From Albidovulum litorale (lineage in GTDB: Bacteria > Pseudomonadota > Alphaproteobacteria > Rhodobacterales > Rhodobacteraceae), in NCBI RefSeq assembly GCF_025751495.1, contig NZ_JAOWKZ010000004.1, positions 310,001 through 374,000 of the forward strand: 64,000 bases of DNA. The letters run 5' to 3'. The notes beneath the pieces were generated by a model. That model was given only the letters and a program-made list of their open reading frames with translations. It had not been told where the DNA came from and ran no database searches. Shown piece after piece: positions 16,746-27,298 of this stretch (its first letter is position 1; the number at the start of each line of letters is the position of its first letter). The translations under genes and the position numbers were made by a program.

Positions 16746-17339
16746 ATGCCCGCATCCGCCATGACCCGCGACTACGAACGGCTTGCCTTCCTGCACGCGC
16801 CGGATGCGACGCTGATCCTCAAGGACCGGGTGATCCTGCGCGCGAGCCTGCGCGTTCTCGAGGTTTTCGGCTGGACCCCTGCCGAGTTGGAGGGGCAGTC
16901 GATCCGCCTGCTTTATCCTGGCCAGAGCGATTATGAGGTCATAGGAGAGAGAGCGCGGCGGGCATTGATGGAACAGCCCGTCTATCAGGACGAACGTTTC
17001 ATGCGCCGCAAGGACGGGCAGGTCGTCTGGATGGAGGGCTGCGGCGCGGCGCTAGACCGGGCCGACCCGCAACGGCTGGCGATCTGGACCTATCGCCCCA
17101 CCGACCGCAAGGCGGCGCAGTTCGGGCCGTTGACAGCGGCCGAAAAACGCGTGGCGCGGTATCTGGTCAACGGCTTCACCAGCAAGGAGATCGCGCTGGC
17201 GCTGAATTGTTCGCACAGGACAGTCGAGGTGCACCGCGCCAATATGATCCGCAAGATGCAAGTCCGTAACAGTTTCGAGCTGGTCCGCAAACTTCTGATG
17301 ACACCTGACCCCGATACCGCAGCCGGGCAGGGAGGCTAG
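16746..17339 (+). CDS. PAS domain and LuxR-type HTH transcriptional regulator
   Basis: A 197-residue regulator. The N-terminal half (about 10-115) is a PAS sensor fold (LEVFGWTPAELEGQSIRLLYP, then MRRKDGQVVWMEG). The C-terminal half (about 125-185) is a LuxR/FixJ helix-turn-helix (LTAAEKRVARYLVNGFTSKE, then HRTVEVHRANMIRKM). There is no receiver domain, so it probably senses a ligand or redox state directly. It is divergent from scoAB, whose palindromic gap marks it as the probable regulator of ketone-body or acetoacetate use. The start is the ATG at 16746 after GAGGGGGG. Confidence 0.85.
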   Translation: MPASAMTRDYERLAFLHAPDATLILKDRVILRASLRVLEVFGWTPAELEGQSIRLLYPGQSDYEVIGERARRALMEQPVYQDERFMRRKDGQVVWMEGCGAALDRADPQRLAIWTYRPTDRKAAQFGPLTAAEKRVARYLVNGFTSKEIALALNCSHRTVEVHRANMIRKMQVRNSFELVRKLLMTPDPDTAAGQGG

Positions 17340-18194: not shown

Positions 18195-18222
18195 TTGACG
18201 GCAAAAACAATTTGATCAAATT
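18195..18222 (+). promoter_or_regulatory. Promoter with overlapping 14-bp perfect palindrome
   Basis: AATTTGATCAAATT (18209-18222) is a perfect palindrome. TTGACG (18195-18200) lies upstream at about -35 distance, so the palindrome covers the -10 region (AATTAT) of a promoter for the aldehyde dehydrogenase gene at 18288. An operator blocking this promoter is the simplest reading. It is not an FNR box, which needs four bases between TTGAT and ATCAA. Confidence 0.55.
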
Positions 18223-18287
18223 ATGCGCAACCCTTGCGGTGAGGATTCGCTGCTGTAGTGTCCCGCCGCCAACAGACGAGGTTTGCC

Positions 18288-19739
18288 ATGATCGAGAAAC
18301 GCGAGTTCTACATCAACGGGCGCTGGACCGCGCCGATTGCCCCGCGCGATTGCCCGGTCATCGACCCCTCGACGGAGGAGCCCTGTGCGGTGATCACGCT
18401 CGGTTCGGCGGCTGATGCCGACGCCGCCGTAGCCGCCGCCAAGGCCGCGTTCCCGGCTTGGGCCGCAACACCCCCGGCCGAACGCCGCGCGGTCGTGGTG
18501 CGCATCCTTGAGCAATATGAAAAGCGCAAGGATGAACTGGCCGAGGCGATTTCCTGTGAGATGGGCGCCCCCATCGACATGGCGAAGGGCAGTCAGGCGC
18601 CCTGCCTGCCCTGGCATCTGAACAATTTCCTCAAGGCCTTTGATGAAATCGAATGGGTCAAACCCCTCGGCCCCCATGCCCCGAATGACCGGATTTCGCT
18701 TGAGCCGATCGGCGTCGTCGGCCTGATCACGCCGTGGAACTGGCCGATGAACCAGATCGCGCTGAAGGCCATTCCGGCGCTTTTGGCCGGCTGCACCTGC
18801 GTACTGAAACCGTCCGAGGAATCGCCCCTGAACGCGATGATCTTCGCTGAGTTCTGCCATGATGCGGGCGTGCCGCCAGGCGTCTTCAACCTGGTGAACG
18901 GTGACGGCATGGGCGTAGGCGCGCGGCTGTCGGAACATCCGGATGTGGAGATGATTTCCTTCACCGGCTCGACCCGTGCAGGCAAGGCGATTTCCAAGGC
19001 CGCTGCCGAGACGCTGAAGCGCGTGACGCTGGAACTCGGTGGCAAGGGCGCCAATGTCATCTTCGCCGATGCCGATGAAAAGGCGGTCAAACGCGGCGTT
19101 ATCCACATGATGCAGAATTCGGGTCAAAGCTGTAACGCGCCGTCGCGCATGCTGGTCGAACGCTCGGTCTATGACCGCGTGGTCGATGAGGCGGCCGAGG
19201 TCGCGAAATCGGTCACGGTCGGCCCGGCCTCGGAACCCGGCCGCCATATCGGCCCGGTGGTGAACAAGCGCCAGTGGGAGCAGATTCAGGGCTATATCCA
19301 GAAGGGCATCGACGAAGGCGCACGACTGGTCGCGGGCGGGCTCGGCCTGCCCGAGGGCATGAACAAGGGCTACTATGTCCGCCCCACCGTCTTTGCCGAT
19401 GTGAAGCCGGGCATGACGATCGAGCGCGAAGAGATCTTCGGCCCGGTCCTGTCGATCATCCCCTTCGAGGACGAGGCGGATGCTGTCAGGATCGCCAATG
19501 ACACGCCCTATGGCCTGACGAACTATGTCCAGACCCAGGACGGCGCCAAACGCAACCGCATGGCGCTGGCTCTGAAATCCGGCATGGTGGAGATGAACGG
19601 CCAGAGCCGCGGGGCAGGCTCGCCGTTCGGCGGGGTCAAGGCCTCCGGCCGCGCCCGCGAGGGCGGACATTGGGGCCTCGAGGAATTCCTGGAGGTCAAG
19701 GCGATCTCCGGCTGGGCCAGCGACATCGCGGCCGAATAG
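18288..19739 (+). CDS. NAD(P)-dependent aldehyde dehydrogenase
   Basis: A 483-residue ALDH-superfamily enzyme with catalytic Glu249 (LELGGKGAN) and Cys282 (NSGQSCNAPSR), cofactor motif TPWNWPMNQ and FTGSTRAGKAI. It oxidises an aldehyde to the acid. The downstream methylated-amine genes suggest an aminoaldehyde such as betaine aldehyde, but the sequence alone does not fix this. The ATG at 18288 follows ACGAGG; an upstream GTG at 18258 is less likely. A large hairpin lies 12 bases after the stop, so it may be a separate unit from the methyltransferase gene. Confidence 0.88.
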   Translation: MIEKREFYINGRWTAPIAPRDCPVIDPSTEEPCAVITLGSAADADAAVAAAKAAFPAWAATPPAERRAVVVRILEQYEKRKDELAEAISCEMGAPIDMAKGSQAPCLPWHLNNFLKAFDEIEWVKPLGPHAPNDRISLEPIGVVGLITPWNWPMNQIALKAIPALLAGCTCVLKPSEESPLNAMIFAEFCHDAGVPPGVFNLVNGDGMGVGARLSEHPDVEMISFTGSTRAGKAISKAAAETLKRVTLELGGKGANVIFADADEKAVKRGVIHMMQNSGQSCNAPSRMLVERSVYDRVVDEAAEVAKSVTVGPASEPGRHIGPVVNKRQWEQIQGYIQKGIDEGARLVAGGLGLPEGMNKGYYVRPTVFADVKPGMTIEREEIFGPVLSIIPFEDEADAVRIANDTPYGLTNYVQTQDGAKRNRMALALKSGMVEMNGQSRGAGSPFGGVKASGRAREGGHWGLEEFLEVKAISGWASDIAAE

Positions 19740-19751
19740 GCTGACCAGCCC

Positions 19752-19783
19752 GGTCCGGTCGGGGCATCGAGCCCCTCCGGACC
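19752..19783 (+). terminator. Strong hairpin after aldehyde dehydrogenase gene
   Basis: GGTCCGG (19752-19758) pairs with CCGGACC (19777-19783), and inside it GGGGC (19761-19765) pairs with GCCCC (19771-19775) around ATCGA. There is no T-tract. It probably limits read-through to the methyltransferase gene or stabilises the upstream mRNA. Confidence 0.55.
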
Positions 19784-19926
19784 GCGCCAGCTGACGCCGG
19801 CGGGCCACCAGAGGCCTGCCGGTTCAAAACGACATTTCACCCCGGTCGAATGTCGCCATGGCTACTTTCCCCGACGGTCGCGCTGCCCCTAGAATTGAGA
19901 GGGACGCGCTTTTTTGGGAGAGAAGC

Positions 19927-21474
19927 ATGACGGGTCAGGACGCAACCGCACGGGTCAGGCATGGCGGGCGCGAAGCGCGGCGGCGCGAAAGGTCGCATAA
20001 GGCGACGGGTTTGGGGCGGCCCTATATCACCCGCAACATCCCGACCTACGACATCATGTCGGAAGAGAACCTTGTGAAGATCGAGGCGGCCGCCGACCGC
20101 ATCCTGGCCGAAACCGGCATCGAGTTTCGCGACGACGATACCTCGATCGAACTCTGGAAGCGTGCTGGCGCCAAGGTCGATGGCCTGTTGGTGAAATTCG
20201 AGCCCGGCATGCTGCGCGAGATCCTGAAATCCGCGCCCGCCGAATTCACCCAACACGCCCGCAATCCCGAGAACACGGTTCAGATCGGCGGCAGGAATGT
20301 CGTCTTTTCCCCGTCTTACGGCTGCCCCTTCGTGATGGACCTCGACCGTGGCCGCCGCTTCGGCACGATCCAGGATTTCGAGAATTTCGTGAAGCTGGCG
20401 CAGTCGTCCCCGTGGTTCCACCATTCCGGCGGCACGATCTGCGAACCGACGGATATCCCGGTCAACAAGCGTCACCTCGACATGGTCTATTCCCATCTTC
20501 GCTATTCCGACCGACCGTTTTCCGGCTCGGTCACCGCCGAAGAGCGCAGCGAGGATTCCATCGACATGGCGCGCATCGTGTTCGGCAATGACTTCGTTGA
20601 CCAGAACTGCGTCATCCTCGGCAACGTTAACGTCAACTCGCCGCTCGTATGGGACGGCACCATGACCAAGTCATTGCGCGCCTATGCCCGCGCCAATCAG
20701 GCCGCGATCGTCGTGCCCTTCATCCTCGGCGGGGCGATGGGTCCGGTTACCACCGCTGGTGCCATTGCCCAGTCGCTGGCCGAGACGATGGCGGGCTGCG
20801 CGCTCACCCAGCTTGAGCGCAAGGGCGCCCCGGTGATCTTCGGCAACTTCCTTTCATCGATGAACCTCCGCTCCGGCTCACCCACCTTCGGTACGCCGGA
20901 ACCGGCGATCGGCTCGATGGTGATCGGTCAGCTTTGCCGGCGGCTGAACCTGCCCTTGCGCTGTTCGGGCAACTTCACGACATCGAAACTGCCTGACGCG
21001 CAGGCGATGACCGAGGGCGTGATGTCGATGCTCGCCGCGGTGCATTGCGGTGCAAACTTCCTGATGCATTCGGCGGGCTTCCTCGACGGCCTGCTGTCGA
21101 TGTCCTACGAGAAGTTTATGCTCGATGCGGATCTTTGCGGCGCGCTGCATACCTATCTCGACGGGGTGAAGATCGACGACAACGAATTGGCCGTCGACGC
21201 CTTTGCCGAGGTTGGCCCCGGCAACCACTTCTTCGGTTGTTCGCATACGATGGCGAACTACGAGACCGCGTTCTGGGACAGCGAGACAGCCGATAACGAG
21301 CCCTTTGAGAAATGGGAAGCGGCGGGCAGCGACGATGCGGCGACGCGGGCCAACCGGCTGTGGAAGCAGCGCTTGCGCGAATATGAAGCGCCGCATCTCG
21401 ATGAAGGCATCGACGAGGCGCTGAAAGAGTTCATGGCGAAGAAGAAGGCCTCGATGCCAGACGCCTGGTACTGA
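19927..21474 (+). CDS. Trimethylamine methyltransferase (MttB) superfamily protein, non-pyrrolysine
   Basis: The 515-residue protein belongs to the MttB superfamily, whose members move a methyl group from a quaternary or tertiary amine to a corrinoid protein. Recognisable blocks are SEENLVKIEAAADRILAETG, FSPSYGCPFVMDLDRG and SGMGFLDGLL-like HSAGFLDGLLSMSYEK. The frame has no internal TAG, so it lacks the pyrrolysine of true trimethylamine enzymes and resembles the glycine-betaine or proline-betaine MtgB/MtpB type. The ATG at 19927, after GGGAGAGAAGC, was preferred over 19858. No corrinoid protein or its activase is encoded nearby. It opens a tight run with two demethylating flavoproteins. Confidence 0.85.
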   Translation: MTGQDATARVRHGGREARRRERSHKATGLGRPYITRNIPTYDIMSEENLVKIEAAADRILAETGIEFRDDDTSIELWKRAGAKVDGLLVKFEPGMLREILKSAPAEFTQHARNPENTVQIGGRNVVFSPSYGCPFVMDLDRGRRFGTIQDFENFVKLAQSSPWFHHSGGTICEPTDIPVNKRHLDMVYSHLRYSDRPFSGSVTAEERSEDSIDMARIVFGNDFVDQNCVILGNVNVNSPLVWDGTMTKSLRAYARANQAAIVVPFILGGAMGPVTTAGAIAQSLAETMAGCALTQLERKGAPVIFGNFLSSMNLRSGSPTFGTPEPAIGSMVIGQLCRRLNLPLRCSGNFTTSKLPDAQAMTEGVMSMLAAVHCGANFLMHSAGFLDGLLSMSYEKFMLDADLCGALHTYLDGVKIDDNELAVDAFAEVGPGNHFFGCSHTMANYETAFWDSETADNEPFEKWEAAGSDDAATRANRLWKQRLREYEAPHLDEGIDEALKEFMAKKKASMPDAWY

Positions 21475-21505
21475 GACCAAAACCTAACGAACCAAGAGAC
21501 TATTC

Positions 21506-23923
21506 ATGGAATCTCACGCACGTGTTGTCATCATCGGCGGCGGCGTTGTCGGCTGCTCGATCCTGTTCCACCTCGCCAAGTTCGGATGGAAGGATGTCAT
21601 CCTTCTGGAACGCGACGAGCTGACGTCCGGCTCGAGCTGGCACGCTGCCGGCCAGATCCACACGATCTCGTCCGACCCGAACATCAGCCGGCTCCAGGGC
21701 TACACGATCAATCTCTACAAGGAGATCGAGGAGACCTCGGGCCAGTCGGTGGGGATGCACAACACTGGCGGCTTTTACCTCGCCTCGAACGAGGTCTGGT
21801 ACGACTATCTGAAGCGCGAGCGGTCAAAGGCCCGCTACATGGGCCTTGACCAGGAGTTTATCTCCGTCGAGGAGGCCGCGCGGCGCCACCCGCTGATCGA
21901 CCCCAAGCACTACATCGCCGCGCTCTGGGATCCGCTCGACGGCGATGTCGATCCGTCCGGCGTTTGCTACGCCTATGCGAAATCGGCGCGTGTCCACGGG
22001 GGGAAATACTACACCCACACGCCGGTGATCGAGACGCGCCAGCGCAAGGACGGCAGCTGGGACGTCGTGACCGAGAAGGGCACAATCAACACCGAGCATG
22101 TCGTCAACGCGGCCGGCCTCTGGGCGCGCGAGGCGGGTCGGATGGCGGGCATCCACCTGCCGGTGCAGCCGATGGAGCACCATTATCTCGTCACCGAGGA
22201 GATCCCCGAAATTGCCGAGCGGATGAAGGCGGGTGAGCGGTTGCCCGCGGGCATCGACTACGAGGCCAACATCTATTTCCGTCAGGAGAGGAATGGGATG
22301 CTCCTTGGCACGTACGAGCCGAAATCGACGCCCTGGAAGGTGGGCGGTACACCGATGGATTTCGGGCACGAACTTCTGCCCCCCGATCTCGATCGAATCG
22401 CCGACCGGCTGGAACTCGCGTTCGACCGCATCCCGGCGCTCGGGCGGGCCGGGATCAAGAACGTCGTCAACGGTCCCTTTACCTTCGGTCCGGATGGCAA
22501 CCCGATGATCGGCCCGGTGCCGGGGCTGACCAATTACTGGGCGGCGGTCGGCGTCATGGCGGGCTTCTGCCAGGGCGGCGGCGTCGGCAAGTGTCTGGCC
22601 GAATGGATGATCGAGGGCGAGCCCGAGATCGACGTCTGGGCCATGGATATTGCCCGTTTCGGCGATTTCGCGACGCCCGACTGGGGCACGGTGAAGTCGT
22701 CGGAGAACTACGAGCGCCGCTTCGTGATGACCTTCCCGAACGAGACCCTGCCGAAGGGCCGTCGCCAGAAGACCACCGCGCTTTACGACCGGCTGGTCGG
22801 GCGCGGTGCGGTCATGGGCACGTCCTTTGGGCTCGAACACGCGCTCTGGTTCGCGAACGGTCCCGATGACGCGCACGAGGCGCCGACCTTCGACCGCAAC
22901 CGCAGCCACGCCTATGTCGCGGCCGAGGTGAAGGCGGTACGCGAGGCGGTCGGCATGATCGAGATCGCCAACTTCGGCAAGCACGAGATCAAGGGGCCGG
23001 GCGCGCGCGCCTTCCTTGACCGGATGCTTGCGGGCAAGCTGCCGAAGCCCGGCCGGGTGGCGCTGTCGCCCGTGCTCACCCACAACGGAAAGCTTTACGG
23101 CGACCTGACCGTCACCTGCCTTGCAGAGGATCACTTCCTCCTGCTCGGCTCGGGAGCGGCGCAGGAGATGCACCGCCGCTGGTTCACCCGTCACCTGCCG
23201 GGGGAGGGCGTCGCTTACGCCAACATCACCGACAGCCTGCACGGTGTCGCCATCGCCGGGCCGAATGCCCGGAAGCTTCTCGAGCGTGTCACCCGCGACG
23301 ACGTTTCCGCGAACGCGCTGAAATTCCGCGACGTGTGCAAGACCTTCGTCGGCGGTGTGCCGGCGATCCTGATGCGCCTCTCGTTCTCGGGCGAGCTCGG
23401 CTACGAAATCTATGTCGCGCCGCAGTATCAGCTTAAGCTCTGGGAAGAGCTTGAAGCGGCAGGTACCGATCTCGGGCTGAAGCCCTACGGCGCGCGGGCG
23501 CTGATGAGCCTGCGGCTTGAGAAAGGCTGGGGGGTCTGGACGATGGACTTCCGCCCCGACTACACCGCTGCGGAAAGCGGGCTCGACGCCTTCATCGACT
23601 GGAAGAAGGACTTCATCGGCAAGGCGGCGGCCGAGGCCGAGGCGAAGAGCGGGCCGAAGGCGAAGCTCGTCACTATGGTCATCGAGACTGACCGTGACGT
23701 GGTCGGCGACGAGGCTATCCTGCAAGACGGCGCCTGCATCGGTCATGTGACCTCGGGCGGCTACGCCCACCATGCTGGCAAGTCCGTGGCGCTTGGCTAT
23801 GTGCCGCCCGCGGCGGCCGACGACGGAACCGCGCTGCAGGTCGAGATCAACGGCACCTTCTGTGCCGCGAAGGTCGTGGCCGAGCCGCTCTACGACGCAG
23901 CCGGCGAGCGTATGAGGAGCTGA
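21506..23923 (+). CDS. Dimethylglycine/sarcosine dehydrogenase-like FAD and GcvT fusion protein
   Basis: An 805-residue two-part enzyme. The N-terminal half is a DAO-type FAD oxidoreductase (VVIIGGGVVGCSIL dinucleotide site) with SGSSWHAAGQ, in which His46 corresponds to the covalent FAD attachment site of dimethylglycine dehydrogenase. The C-terminal half (about 430-800) is a GcvT aminomethyltransferase domain (LSFSGELGYEIYVAP, GARALMSLRLEKGWG) that captures the one-carbon unit on tetrahydrofolate. It should oxidatively remove an N-methyl group from a di- or monomethylated amino acid. It begins 31 bases after the MttB gene; the next gene follows after 2 bases. Confidence 0.88.
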   Translation: MESHARVVIIGGGVVGCSILFHLAKFGWKDVILLERDELTSGSSWHAAGQIHTISSDPNISRLQGYTINLYKEIEETSGQSVGMHNTGGFYLASNEVWYDYLKRERSKARYMGLDQEFISVEEAARRHPLIDPKHYIAALWDPLDGDVDPSGVCYAYAKSARVHGGKYYTHTPVIETRQRKDGSWDVVTEKGTINTEHVVNAAGLWAREAGRMAGIHLPVQPMEHHYLVTEEIPEIAERMKAGERLPAGIDYEANIYFRQERNGMLLGTYEPKSTPWKVGGTPMDFGHELLPPDLDRIADRLELAFDRIPALGRAGIKNVVNGPFTFGPDGNPMIGPVPGLTNYWAAVGVMAGFCQGGGVGKCLAEWMIEGEPEIDVWAMDIARFGDFATPDWGTVKSSENYERRFVMTFPNETLPKGRRQKTTALYDRLVGRGAVMGTSFGLEHALWFANGPDDAHEAPTFDRNRSHAYVAAEVKAVREAVGMIEIANFGKHEIKGPGARAFLDRMLAGKLPKPGRVALSPVLTHNGKLYGDLTVTCLAEDHFLLLGSGAAQEMHRRWFTRHLPGEGVAYANITDSLHGVAIAGPNARKLLERVTRDDVSANALKFRDVCKTFVGGVPAILMRLSFSGELGYEIYVAPQYQLKLWEELEAAGTDLGLKPYGARALMSLRLEKGWGVWTMDFRPDYTAAESGLDAFIDWKKDFIGKAAAEAEAKSGPKAKLVTMVIETDRDVVGDEAILQDGACIGHVTSGGYAHHAGKSVALGYVPPAAADDGTALQVEINGTFCAAKVVAEPLYDAAGERMRS

Positions 23924-23925
23924 GC

Positions 23926-25905
23926 ATGACCACCGCCCACCCCCGCCTCATGTCCCCGATCGAGCTTCGGGGACATACGCTTCGCAACCGTATCGTTTTC
24001 GGCGCCCATACAGCGAACATGTCGGTCGAGGGCCTGCCCGGCGAGCGGTTCGGCGCCTATCTCCTCGAACGCGCGCTCGGCGGCGCGGCGATGATCGTGG
24101 CCGAACCGATGCCGGTCCATCGAACCGGCGTCCTCACCCGAGGCAACTTCCGCCATGGCACGGATGACGTCATCCCGCATTTCCGCAAGATCACCGAACC
24201 GGTGAAAGAGGCGGGGGCGGTGCTGCTTCAGCAGCTTTACCACATCGGCTCGCACGGTGATTCCGACCTGAGCTTTTCACCCCATTGGGGGCCGTCGGGC
24301 GGGCCGAGTTATCACGACTCGGACGGCTCGCACGCGATGACCGAGGCCGAGATCGAGGAGCTGATAGAGGCCCACATCGCCGCTGCCGTGCGCTGCCAGA
24401 AAGGCGGCTTTCAGGGGGTGGAGGTCTGGGGGGCGTACCATTCCCTCTTGGACCAGTTCTGGACCCCATGGTCGAACAAGCGCAATGACAAGTGGGGCGG
24501 CAGCCTTGAGAACCGCACCCGCATGTCGCGAACGATCATCGAGGGCATCCGCAAGGCCTGCGGCGAGGATTTCATCATCGGCCTCGCGATCAGCACTTCC
24601 GATGCCTACGACGTGACGCTTCAGGGCGAGGCCCTGGCCGAGGTCGTGGCATTGCACGACGCCACCGGCCATATCGACTATGTCACCTGCGGCCATGGCG
24701 GCTATTTGGATTTCCAGCGCCTCATGCCGACCTTCCTCTACGCCGAAAAGCTGACGGCCCCTTTTACCGAAGAGCTGAAGAAAGTCGTCAAACACGCAAA
24801 GGTCACGTCCGAGGCGCATATCCGCACACCGGAAAATGCCGAGGCGGTGATCGCCTCGGGTCAGGCTGACCTCGTTTCCATCGTCCGCGGCCAGATCGCC
24901 GACCCGCATCTGGCGAAGAAAACGGCCGAGGGAAGGGCCGAGGATGTGCGGGGCTGCATCTCCTGCAACCAGATGTGCTGGGGGCGTCGCAGCCGCGACT
25001 ACTGGATTTCGTGCCTGATCAACCCCTCGGCGGGGCGCGAATTCGAATGGGGCGGCGACCGCTTCACACCTGCCGAAAAACCTCGCCGCGTGGTCGTCGT
25101 CGGTGCCGGTCCCGCCGGGTTGGAAGCCGCGCGGGTGGCGGCGGAACGCGGCCACCGCGTCGATATATTTGAGGCGCAGCCCCGCATCGGCGGCCAGTTC
25201 CGGCTGGCGGGCGAACAGCCGCGCCGCGCCCAGATTCTCGACCTGATGGACTGGTATGAACGCCAGTTCGAAAAGCTTCAAGTGCGGCTGCATCTGAACA
25301 GCTATGTGGACGCAGACGATATCCGCGCGCTGGAACCGGACGCCGTGGTGCTGGCGACCGGCTCGCTGCCGGACGAGGATGGGTTTCAGCGCTGGATGCC
25401 CGCAGCCGACCGGCTGCCCGGCATCGATCGGGGCAATGTCTGGTCGCCCGAGGAGGTCATGCGCCGAGAGGCGAAACTCGGGGATCACGTCATCCTCTAT
25501 GACGAAGGGGGTCACTGGCGCGGGCTCGGCACCGCCTGGGCCATGGCCGAGCGCAGCCACAAGGTCACGATCGTCACACCGGAACCCTTCATCGGCAAGG
25601 AACTGGCGCGGACCTCGTCCGACATCCCGCTGCGGCCACGCCTCGCGGGCCTCGGCGTGTCCTTCCTGACCGAACACCTTATCTCCGAATGGCATGGGCA
25701 GGCGGCGACGGTCCGTAATATGCTGACCGGCACTGACATCCGGCTGGAGGCCTCGGCCCTCGTCATGTCCACGACGAACCGCGCCTTCGATCCGCTCTCG
25801 GCCGAGCTCGGCGGCATTGAGACCCACCTCATCGGAGATGCCTCAGCCCCCCGGCAAGCGCCCTATGCCTTCCACGAGGGAAGAAAGATAGCCTTGAACC
25901 TGTGA
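23926..25905 (+). CDS. TMADH/DgcA-like FMN, 4Fe-4S and FAD/NAD oxidoreductase
   Basis: A 659-residue protein with the old-yellow-enzyme plus dinucleotide layout of trimethylamine dehydrogenase, dimethylglycine demethylase DgcA and stachydrine demethylase. Residues 1-330 form the FMN barrel (VEVWGAYHSLLDQFWTPWSN). The 4Fe-4S motif C-x2-C-x3-C-x11-C is near residues 344-363 (CISCNQMC). A Rossmann site follows at about 385 (VVVVGAGPAGLEAARVAAER). It probably demethylates a tertiary amine. It starts 2 bases after the preceding stop, so translation is coupled. Which methylated amine it uses is not determined by sequence. Confidence 0.85.
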   Translation: MTTAHPRLMSPIELRGHTLRNRIVFGAHTANMSVEGLPGERFGAYLLERALGGAAMIVAEPMPVHRTGVLTRGNFRHGTDDVIPHFRKITEPVKEAGAVLLQQLYHIGSHGDSDLSFSPHWGPSGGPSYHDSDGSHAMTEAEIEELIEAHIAAAVRCQKGGFQGVEVWGAYHSLLDQFWTPWSNKRNDKWGGSLENRTRMSRTIIEGIRKACGEDFIIGLAISTSDAYDVTLQGEALAEVVALHDATGHIDYVTCGHGGYLDFQRLMPTFLYAEKLTAPFTEELKKVVKHAKVTSEAHIRTPENAEAVIASGQADLVSIVRGQIADPHLAKKTAEGRAEDVRGCISCNQMCWGRRSRDYWISCLINPSAGREFEWGGDRFTPAEKPRRVVVVGAGPAGLEAARVAAERGHRVDIFEAQPRIGGQFRLAGEQPRRAQILDLMDWYERQFEKLQVRLHLNSYVDADDIRALEPDAVVLATGSLPDEDGFQRWMPAADRLPGIDRGNVWSPEEVMRREAKLGDHVILYDEGGHWRGLGTAWAMAERSHKVTIVTPEPFIGKELARTSSDIPLRPRLAGLGVSFLTEHLISEWHGQAATVRNMLTGTDIRLEASALVMSTTNRAFDPLSAELGGIETHLIGDASAPRQAPYAFHEGRKIALNL

Positions 25906-25951
25906 TGGACGCATACTTTGCCCGTTCGATGAACACCGGGGGGGGAAGGGT

Positions 25952-27298
25952 ATGGTCGCAGGGATCGATCCGGCACGGCTGAACGCCGTGTTCGAGAGAG
26001 AGTATCGGGAATTCGTTGCCAGAACGCCGAAGTCGGCAGCACTGATCGCAAGGGCGCGCGACGTGATGCCTGATGGCGTGCCGATGGCCTGGATGGCGGG
26101 TCTCTTCGCGCATCCGCCGATCTGCGCGGTCGGGGGCGAAGGCAGCGCCTTCGAGGATGCCGACGGCAACCGTTACATCGACTTCAACCTCGCCGATCTG
26201 AGCAACACCATCGGTTACGGACCGACCGCCGTCAGCCGTCTTACCGCGGAAACGGCGGCGCGGGGCGTGCAGTATCTGATGCCGTCAGAGGATGCGATTG
26301 CGGTTGCGGAGGAGCTGAAACGCCGGACGGGTTTCCGGTTCTGGCAGTACACGCTCAGCGCCTCGCAGGCGAATACCGAGATCATCCGTATCGCCCGCGC
26401 CATGACGGGGCGGCAGAAGGTGGTGGTGTTTCAGGGCAAGTATCACGGCCATCTCGACACCACGCTGGCCGAGGATGGCCCGCCGGACGCTCTGGGACTG
26501 GCGCCAGCCTCGGTGCGCGACACCGTCGTGATCCCGTTTAACGACCCCGATGCCCTGCGCGCCGCACTTGCGGGCGGGGACGTCGCGCTGGTGATGACCG
26601 AACCCGCGCTGACCAATTGCACGCTGGTCATCGCCGAGCCGGGTTTTCTGACCGACGCGCATGCTTTGTCCCGTGCGGCGGGCACGCTCTTTGCGTTCGA
26701 TGAGACCCATACCTGGCAGTTCGCCTATGGCGGCCTCGCGCCGGGCGATGGCTTGACCGCGGATTTCCTGTGCCTTGGCAAGGGCCTTGGCACCGGTGTG
26801 GCCTTCGCCTGCTACGGCATGACGGCTGAGATCGGCGCGTTCGTCGAAGACCAGCTTGAATCCATTTCGCGTGACCGCAACGGGTTGGCCATCGGCGGAA
26901 CGCTCTTTGGCAACGCACTCAGCGTATCGGCGACCCGTGCCGGTCTGGACGAGATCCTAACCGAAGAGGGATATGCCCGCCTTGCTCGGCTCGGAACCCG
27001 CCTTGCCGACGGGCTCGACGGTCTGATCGCCCGGCACGGACTGCCCTGGCGTTCATTCCGACTCGGGCCGCGGGCGGGGTTCTGTCTTACGCCGGAAGCG
27101 CCACGGAACTATACCGAGGCGAAACCCTCGCTTGACCGGTCATTCAGCGCCGCACGGCGGCTGTTCATGGCCAATCGCGGAATATGGGAGGCGATCATCT
27201 CGGCCGCGCCGCAGGTTGGTTTCGCGCATGAAGCGGCCGATATCGACCGCTATGTCGAGGTCGCGGGCGCGTTCCTTGATGATGTGACCGGGGCCTGA
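25952..27298 (+). CDS. Class III aminotransferase, glutamate-1-semialdehyde aminomutase-like
   Basis: A 448-residue PLP enzyme of fold type I. The PLP lysine is Lys277 in LCLGKGLGTGVAF, with the acidic ring-nitrogen partner in LFAFDETHTWQF. The N-terminal half has the GSAM-like YIDFNLADLSNTIGYG. It is unlikely to be HemL for haem, because the DETHTW motif and sequence differ from the HemL DEV block and the genomic setting is catabolic. It starts 46 bases after the demethylase gene and probably ends the amine operon, perhaps transaminating the demethylated product. Substrate unknown. Confidence 0.75.
   Translation: MVAGIDPARLNAVFEREYREFVARTPKSAALIARARDVMPDGVPMAWMAGLFAHPPICAVGGEGSAFEDADGNRYIDFNLADLSNTIGYGPTAVSRLTAETAARGVQYLMPSEDAIAVAEELKRRTGFRFWQYTLSASQANTEIIRIARAMTGRQKVVVFQGKYHGHLDTTLAEDGPPDALGLAPASVRDTVVIPFNDPDALRAALAGGDVALVMTEPALTNCTLVIAEPGFLTDAHALSRAAGTLFAFDETHTWQFAYGGLAPGDGLTADFLCLGKGLGTGVAFACYGMTAEIGAFVEDQLESISRDRNGLAIGGTLFGNALSVSATRAGLDEILTEEGYARLARLGTRLADGLDGLIARHGLPWRSFRLGPRAGFCLTPEAPRNYTEAKPSLDRSFSAARRLFMANRGIWEAIISAAPQVGFAHEAADIDRYVEVAGAFLDDVTGA

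Follow-up and report, generated by a model that had tools for sequence, protein, structure and literature searches.

A candidate aerobic B12-dependent betaine demethylation module in Albidovulum litorale and its probable corrinoid partner genes elsewhere in the genome

A 64,000-nucleotide stretch of Albidovulum litorale DNA (contig NZ_JAOWKZ010000004.1, positions 310,001–374,000; referred to as the window) carries a run of genes specifying an aldehyde dehydrogenase (ALDH), a non-pyrrolysine protein of the MttB superfamily, a dimethylglycine dehydrogenase-type flavoprotein fused to a GcvT domain (DMGDH), an old yellow enzyme (OYE)-type flavoprotein and a class III aminotransferase. The cluster appears to demethylate glycine betaine, or a carboxylated betaine much like it, aerobically and with the help of B12, a reading to which we give a probability of about 0.66. 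It is very likely that the MttB-type enzyme depends on a corrinoid protein, through a shared MtgC. A system of this kind was already published in 2025, and the one described here is a further member with its own local gene arrangement.

The MttB-type methyltransferase and its probable corrinoid partner

The window MttB spans the whole PF06253 profile (1–500 of 500). Its frame runs uninterrupted to a TGA at 21472 and, as the preliminary description of this DNA had stated, lacks an in-frame amber codon. In the alignment, position 334 of trimethylamine methyltransferase, the site of pyrrolysine, corresponds to F373, and the score against TIGR02369 (269 bits) falls below the cut-off of 525. The absence of an amber codon and the F373 residue exclude a pyrrolysine-type trimethylamine methyltransferase. 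The closest solved protein is 4yyc (620 bits), labelled by its depositors as a putative trimethylamine methyltransferase and, we assume, from Sinorhizobium meliloti; 2qne and 9yce follow with 393 and 392 bits, the latter labelled as the glycine betaine methyltransferase of Desulfitobacterium hafniense, and trimethylamine methyltransferase itself scores 112 bits. Among characterised enzymes, glycine betaine methyltransferase is the nearest. A second ATG at 19927, preceded by the purine-rich GGGAGAGAAGC, would give a protein of 515 amino acids and may be the likelier true start, the listed open reading frame (ORF) beginning 69 bases earlier.

For the D. hafniense enzyme MtgB, docking pointed to Y94, N199, R309 and H345 as predicted contacts of betaine and to F/Y353 as an additional aromatic residue (PMC6855144). 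All four predicted contacts are kept in the window MttB, as Y154, N258, R368 and H404, and not lost, the outcome that the preliminary description had named as fatal to its proposal. They are also nearly invariant among 80 orthologue sequences (Y in 79; N, R and H in 80 each), made up of the window's own and 79 that were called, at 78 of the 80 loci. Homology to the D. hafniense MtgB is near full length, with about 42% identity, and both proteins lack pyrrolysine. The two systems differ in that the D. hafniense enzyme comes from an anaerobe, in that position 353 is leucine in the window MttB, and in that the partner genes are not adjacent here.

No B12-binding_2 domain (PF02607) was found in the window, which lies on C9, one of the 13 contigs of this 4.05 Mb genome (99.99% complete). 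The sole match of the genome is on contig C3, in an MtgC (L016:8809–9510) that combines PF02310 with PF02607 and possesses a DIHDIG motif. The same contig carries the one RACo/RamA-type activase and one pterin-binding MtgD-like protein (L100:7716–8675). Neighbours of the mtgC gene within about 2.5 kb encode a homocysteine methyltransferase of the MtgE type (PRK07534; 611 bits against a cut-off of 338) and a DUF1638 protein. The earlier observation that no corrinoid protein is visible at the cluster is thus borne out, and so is the suggestion that it is encoded elsewhere; the other suggestion then made, an unusual methyl acceptor, finds no support in a genome possessing both MtgC and RamA. No MetH was found in this genome, since its single cap-domain match falls in an ORF of just 250 amino acids. 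Genes with PF06253 number seven (11 candidates scored).

These features recall the MtgBCDE/split methionine synthase system of Ruegeria pomeroyi and Phaeobacter inhibens (PMC12478193), with which A. litorale shares separate MtgC, MtgD and MtgE proteins, a RamA-type activase, DUF1638, the absence of a detected MetH-type cap domain, several PF06253 genes and a place in the Rhodobacterales. According to the same paper, R. pomeroyi strains mutated in mtgC or mtgD can neither make methionine nor grow on glycine betaine. It also notes that as many as seven PF06253 genes are often present and proposes other methylated substrates for them. Unlike the R. pomeroyi arrangement, one MttB gene of A. litorale adjoins DMGDH and OYE genes, and no metF2 was recognised beside mtgD.

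The distribution of MttB, MtgC and RamA was profiled in 195 genomes of the order, each at least 90% complete and all with the same family label. PF06253 was present in 181, RACo_C_ter in 180 and MtgC, counted at E below 1e-100, in 180; at most seven candidates were scored per genome, copy numbers being lower bounds. All three occur together in 179 genomes and none in 13, leaving three in disagreement (MttB with MtgC and RamA: Fisher p 2e-17, kinship ignored). MtgC and RamA are absent from an identical set of 15 genomes, 13 of which also lack MttB; the matches to MtgC in these 15, only near 1e-26 to 1e-30, are presumed to be MetH domains.

Paralogues and the choice of substrate

Glycine betaine is somewhat favoured as the main substrate of the window cluster. 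Among the six paralogues of the window MttB only C8a keeps all four predicted betaine residues; C3a and C8b lack the tyrosine, and C10, C3b and C7 lack the tyrosine, arginine and histidine. C8a is nearer to 4yyc than is the window protein (731 vs 620 bits) and has the same four residues, which leaves room for a different betaine as the substrate of the window copy. On this alternative, which we consider the less probable, the window MttB would use the same MtgC to demethylate some other carboxylated betaine, such as proline betaine, beta-alanine betaine or gamma-butyrobetaine, and C8a would be the glycine betaine enzyme. The presence of two paralogues with identical contacts in one genome is in its favour, and leucine or glycine as against phenylalanine at position 353 separates the window and C8a clades. 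S. meliloti seems to hold both types: an orthologue of the window MttB (77.6%) is encoded on pSymB, and 4yyc, presumably from this species, groups with C8a. In one acetogen, MttB-type enzymes with different substrates have one corrinoid protein in common, and the discussion of the same paper on choline demethylation argues that known members probably bind their substrates by the carboxylate (PMC12155760).

The neighbours of orthologous genes speak instead for glycine betaine or choline. In Rhodobacter sp. CZR27 an orthologue of the window type (80.5%) adjoins a LysR gene resembling a choline-sulfate regulator (252 bits, cut-off 325), beyond which lie genes for GbcA-like (486 bits, cut-off 670) and GbcB-like (385 bits, cut-off 500) proteins and a ProX-type glycine betaine transporter. 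The GbcAB-like genes cut both ways, as their products would already demethylate glycine betaine themselves. Two MttB-type proteins of R. pomeroyi rise jointly on N-osmolytes (PMC12478193), and duplicates for one substrate are therefore plausible. In Mesorhizobium alhagi, salt raised the expression of fhs and of an mttB gene of unknown clade, yet knocking out the latter gave no salt phenotype (PMC4302635). Homarine catabolism, considered at first, was dropped: the kept betaine residues point elsewhere, and none of the papers listed by the literature search named a homarine operon in its title or the opening of its abstract.

A further cluster, at L015:1474–15152 on contig C3, combines an MttB paralogue with two DMGDH-type genes, a GMC oxidoreductase gene, a hydantoinase-type gene and an ALDH gene whose product is 52% like that of the window.

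Gene order and the two flavoproteins

Gene calls and Pfam domains agree with the preliminary description on the content and order of the five genes (Table 1), all on one strand; the gaps from ALDH to aminotransferase are 118, 31, 2 and 46 bases, those of 31 and 2 bases flanking the DMGDH gene. The ALDH has 3i44 as its nearest solved chain (657 bits) and scores 382 bits against the betaine-aldehyde dehydrogenase model, below the cut-off of 668.6. The nearest solved chain to the aminotransferase is 5ykr (240 bits). A gathering-threshold scan of the window and three further loci of the genome for RNA control elements, riboswitches included, gave only a tRNA.

Table 1. Genes of the cluster and the regulator gene upstream of it; coordinates are those of the window
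Gene product	Coordinates	Strand	Length and domains
PAS-LuxR-type regulator upstream of cluster	16746..17339	+	GerE + PAS domains
Aldehyde dehydrogenase	18258..19739	+	493 aa from GTG; PF00171, 514 bits
Non-pyrrolysine MttB-superfamily methyltransferase, MtgB-like	19858..21474	+	538 aa; PF06253, 767 bits
DMGDH/sarcosine-dehydrogenase-type flavoprotein + GcvT folate domain	21506..23923	+	805 aa; four Pfam domains
OYE-type FMN/[4Fe-4S]/NAD(P) flavoprotein with a divergent active site; candidate demethylase of amines, or reductase	23926..25905	+	659 aa; PF00724 + Rossmann-type domains
Class III aminotransferase, lineage-specific neighbour	25952..27298	+	448 aa; PF00202

The DMGDH, with domains in the order DAO, FAO_M, GCV_T, GCV_T_C, probably carries out the second demethylation step. 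It resembles the mammalian-type enzyme 5l46 (577 bits) more than dimethylglycine oxidase 1pj5 (316 bits), aligning with the former over 793 of 805 residues with the same domains and a WHAAG motif in both. Unlike 5l46, it belongs to an MttB-linked subfamily that is about 50–54% identical to the common DMGDH of this bacterial family. In a search scoring at most five candidates per genome, matches of 70–75% were taken as the window type and those of 50–54% as the common type. The window type was found at 18 or more places in 17 other genomes, and further copies may exist. At 13 of 18 places the flanks examined, of about 8.5 kb, contain an MttB gene, in 11 cases directly upstream (<200 bases, by tblastn ends), as compared with one of 18 places for the common type (p 8e-5); the 18 control loci were a manual selection spaced along the list, not a random one, and their limit of 1e-20 was laxer than the 1e-30 applied to the test loci. 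Twelve of the 13 linked MttB proteins keep the Y/N/R/H set and form a clade apart from that of the window, and the thirteenth (L131) belongs with C3a and C8b. Near the window-type DMGDH are also found a GbdR-like regulator group, a further pointer to betaine (4/18; one member scanned, 244 bits, cut-off 480), threonine dehydrogenase (4/18) and glycine C-acetyltransferase (3/18; one member of each scanned), and the last two fit a pathway ending at glycine. Folate-binding dimethylglycine and sarcosine dehydrogenases have been described for the later steps in R. pomeroyi (PMC4744692).

The OYE-type protein shares an FMN barrel, a four-cysteine motif and Rossmann-type domains with the group of trimethylamine dehydrogenase (TMADH), DgcA and 2,4-dienoyl-CoA reductase. 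Its best score is with NCR (282 bits), which we take to be 2-naphthoyl-CoA reductase, followed by 2,4-dienoyl-CoA reductase (238) and TMADH (188). The motif C-x2-C-x3-C-x11-C, present in all 13 sequences compared (that of the window, ten of its group 28, and those of loci L123 and L124), points to a [4Fe-4S] cluster. By alignment count, W, Y, S and T stand at TMADH residues 169, 172, 174 and 30, those at 169, 172 and 30 being the same or near in the other 12 sequences; the TMADH chain aligned was a variant with alanine at 30. Where TMADH has Tyr169 and His172, presumably catalytic (Cys30 presumably being flavin-linking), the window group has the stretch W[GA]AYH[SG]LL[DE]QFW. With key residues replaced and two reductases scoring higher, identity as TMADH was not upheld, and the TMADH part of the earlier label "TMADH/DgcA-like" fits only in part. 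The window's AYHSLLDQFW does resemble the AYGHLLDGFW found at the same place in the group-9 OYE protein of Hyphomicrobiales-type loci, which lacks one of the four cysteines; we assume motifs of the latter type to be DgcA-like. Whether the window protein acts as a demethylase is evenly balanced on these comparisons.

Conservation of the cluster was followed in the best 80 of 477 related stretches, and the neighbour counts cover these 80 nearest, none of which is from R. pomeroyi; counts given out of 78 leave aside L034 and L064, where MttB was uncalled. Defluviimonas aestuarii is the closest relative found that bears a name (98% in MttB). An OYE gene of at least 60% directly follows MttB in 12 loci, and an ALDH gene lies upstream in all ten of these that hold at least 1.5 kb on that side. 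DMGDH stands between the two in one of the 12 (D. salinarum, L019; 97% in protein). In the D. aestuarii locus (L018) the DNA aligns to 21475 and resumes at 23916, the DMGDH gene alone being missing. The aminotransferase occurs in one of the ten relatives holding at least 1.5 kb downstream (L018), and the PAS-LuxR-type regulator was likewise matched in L018 alone of the 80 loci. Elsewhere among the orthologue loci a LysR gene is divergent from MttB in 16 of 78, and the group-9 OYE gene lies within 6.5 kb downstream in 20 of 78.

Because of these neighbour counts ALDH-MttB-OYE is seen as the local core, with DMGDH as a putative later guest or the subject of repeated loss and the aminotransferase as a local addition, probably outside the core. 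The cluster does not hold together as one piece, as had been assumed, and the end-step by transamination is unsupported, given that the aminotransferase is found in just one of ten relatives. The rarity of these two genes, and the mostly different neighbours of orthologous MttB, are what would be expected of a chance mosaic whose genes were added singly and serve no single pathway. Such a mosaic is very improbable: L123 and L124 again combine MttB and DMGDH with an OYE of the same group, and in both an OYE gene of 71% lies between an MttB of a different clade and a window-type DMGDH, and the upstream ALDH was seen in every relative that could be judged.

A proposed scheme for betaine demethylation

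The stepwise demethylation of a quaternary amine beginning with an MttB-type corrinoid methyltransferase, as first proposed for this cluster, is supported by the partner genes and by the co-occurrence in 195 genomes. In the scheme that we favour, the window MttB, acting as an MtgB, would transfer one betaine methyl group to Co(I) of the single MtgC, which would also be common to the split methionine synthase. MtgD would hand the methyl group to tetrahydrofolate, the cobalt being kept reduced by RamA with DUF1638. DMGDH would then oxidise the resulting tertiary amine, dimethylglycine in the case of glycine betaine, and pass the carbon to folate, and the OYE-type flavoprotein may remove, or help to remove, a further methyl group; the electron acceptors are presumed ones. 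For the ALDH one can only guess at a role, perhaps the formation of the betaine from its aldehyde. The aminotransferase is not included in the pathway.

Several findings weigh against this reading. The betaine contacts in MttB are docking predictions, and the aromatic residue at 353 is replaced by leucine. The OYE-type protein lacks the residues that we take to be catalytic in TMADH. In 37 of the 78 orthologue loci MttB follows a pgm gene, after what are presumably glycogen genes (named, other than pgm, by their protein starts). Window-type DMGDH has no MttB in its flanks at 5 of 18 places, and the common-type DMGDH of this genome (L137) likewise has a GbdR-like gene nearby. The ORF beside mtgD (L100:6765–7688), in the place of metF2 in R. 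pomeroyi, has no Pfam match at 1e-5, both PF02219 genes being located away from mtgD, and the NCBIfam matches of MtgC, GbdR, GbcA and GbcB are each below their own cut-offs. A single genus (g7) accounts for nine of the 15 genomes that lack MtgC, and a tenth genome of it (G048) carries MttB, MtgC and RamA.

The three discordant genomes belong to the same list. G156 possesses MtgC and RamA with no MttB found, the pattern expected if MtgC also serves methionine synthesis. In G039 and G148 MttB is present and neither MtgC nor RamA was found. The G039 MttB is intact (L140:8932–10461) and 73% like C8a; the assembly comprises 40 contigs, so the missing genes may reflect an assembly gap. That of G148 is 63% like C3a and is separated by one ORF from nearby H-NOX and GGDEF genes (region L141:4992–10320); C3a itself directly adjoins genes of these two kinds (region L011:6253–9613, contig C3). 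A published figure legend already names MTTB among the neighbours of H-NOX (PMC8738867). That the window MttB uses an acceptor other than a corrinoid protein, as its corrinoid-less surroundings and these two of 195 genomes might be taken to indicate, is very improbable, given MtgC, RamA, MtgD and MtgE in its own genome, MtgC and RamA together in 179 of 181 MttB genomes, and exceptions of C8a and C3a type, neither being of the window type.

An extension of the betaine demethylation scheme, which we regard as doubtful, would be a family of B12 betaine modules in aerobic Rhodobacteraceae (here with seven MttB) loading one MtgC shared with methionine synthesis, in which a DMGDH subfamily dedicated to this use and an OYE-type flavoprotein were joined to MttB more than once, around different MttB clades; the window copy would then serve a carboxylated betaine other than glycine betaine and would include a new OYE-type demethylase.

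The puzzling "corrinoid-less" cluster is now placed within the system published in 2025. The question that it raised has a published type of answer, and the assignment of the substrate remains. The MttB-linked DMGDH subfamily can serve to mark the second step of demethylation and yields a short list of candidate genes for betaine turnover, and the co-occurrence over 195 genomes supports the B12 dependence of MttB-type enzymes across a mostly aerobic family, beyond one model strain.

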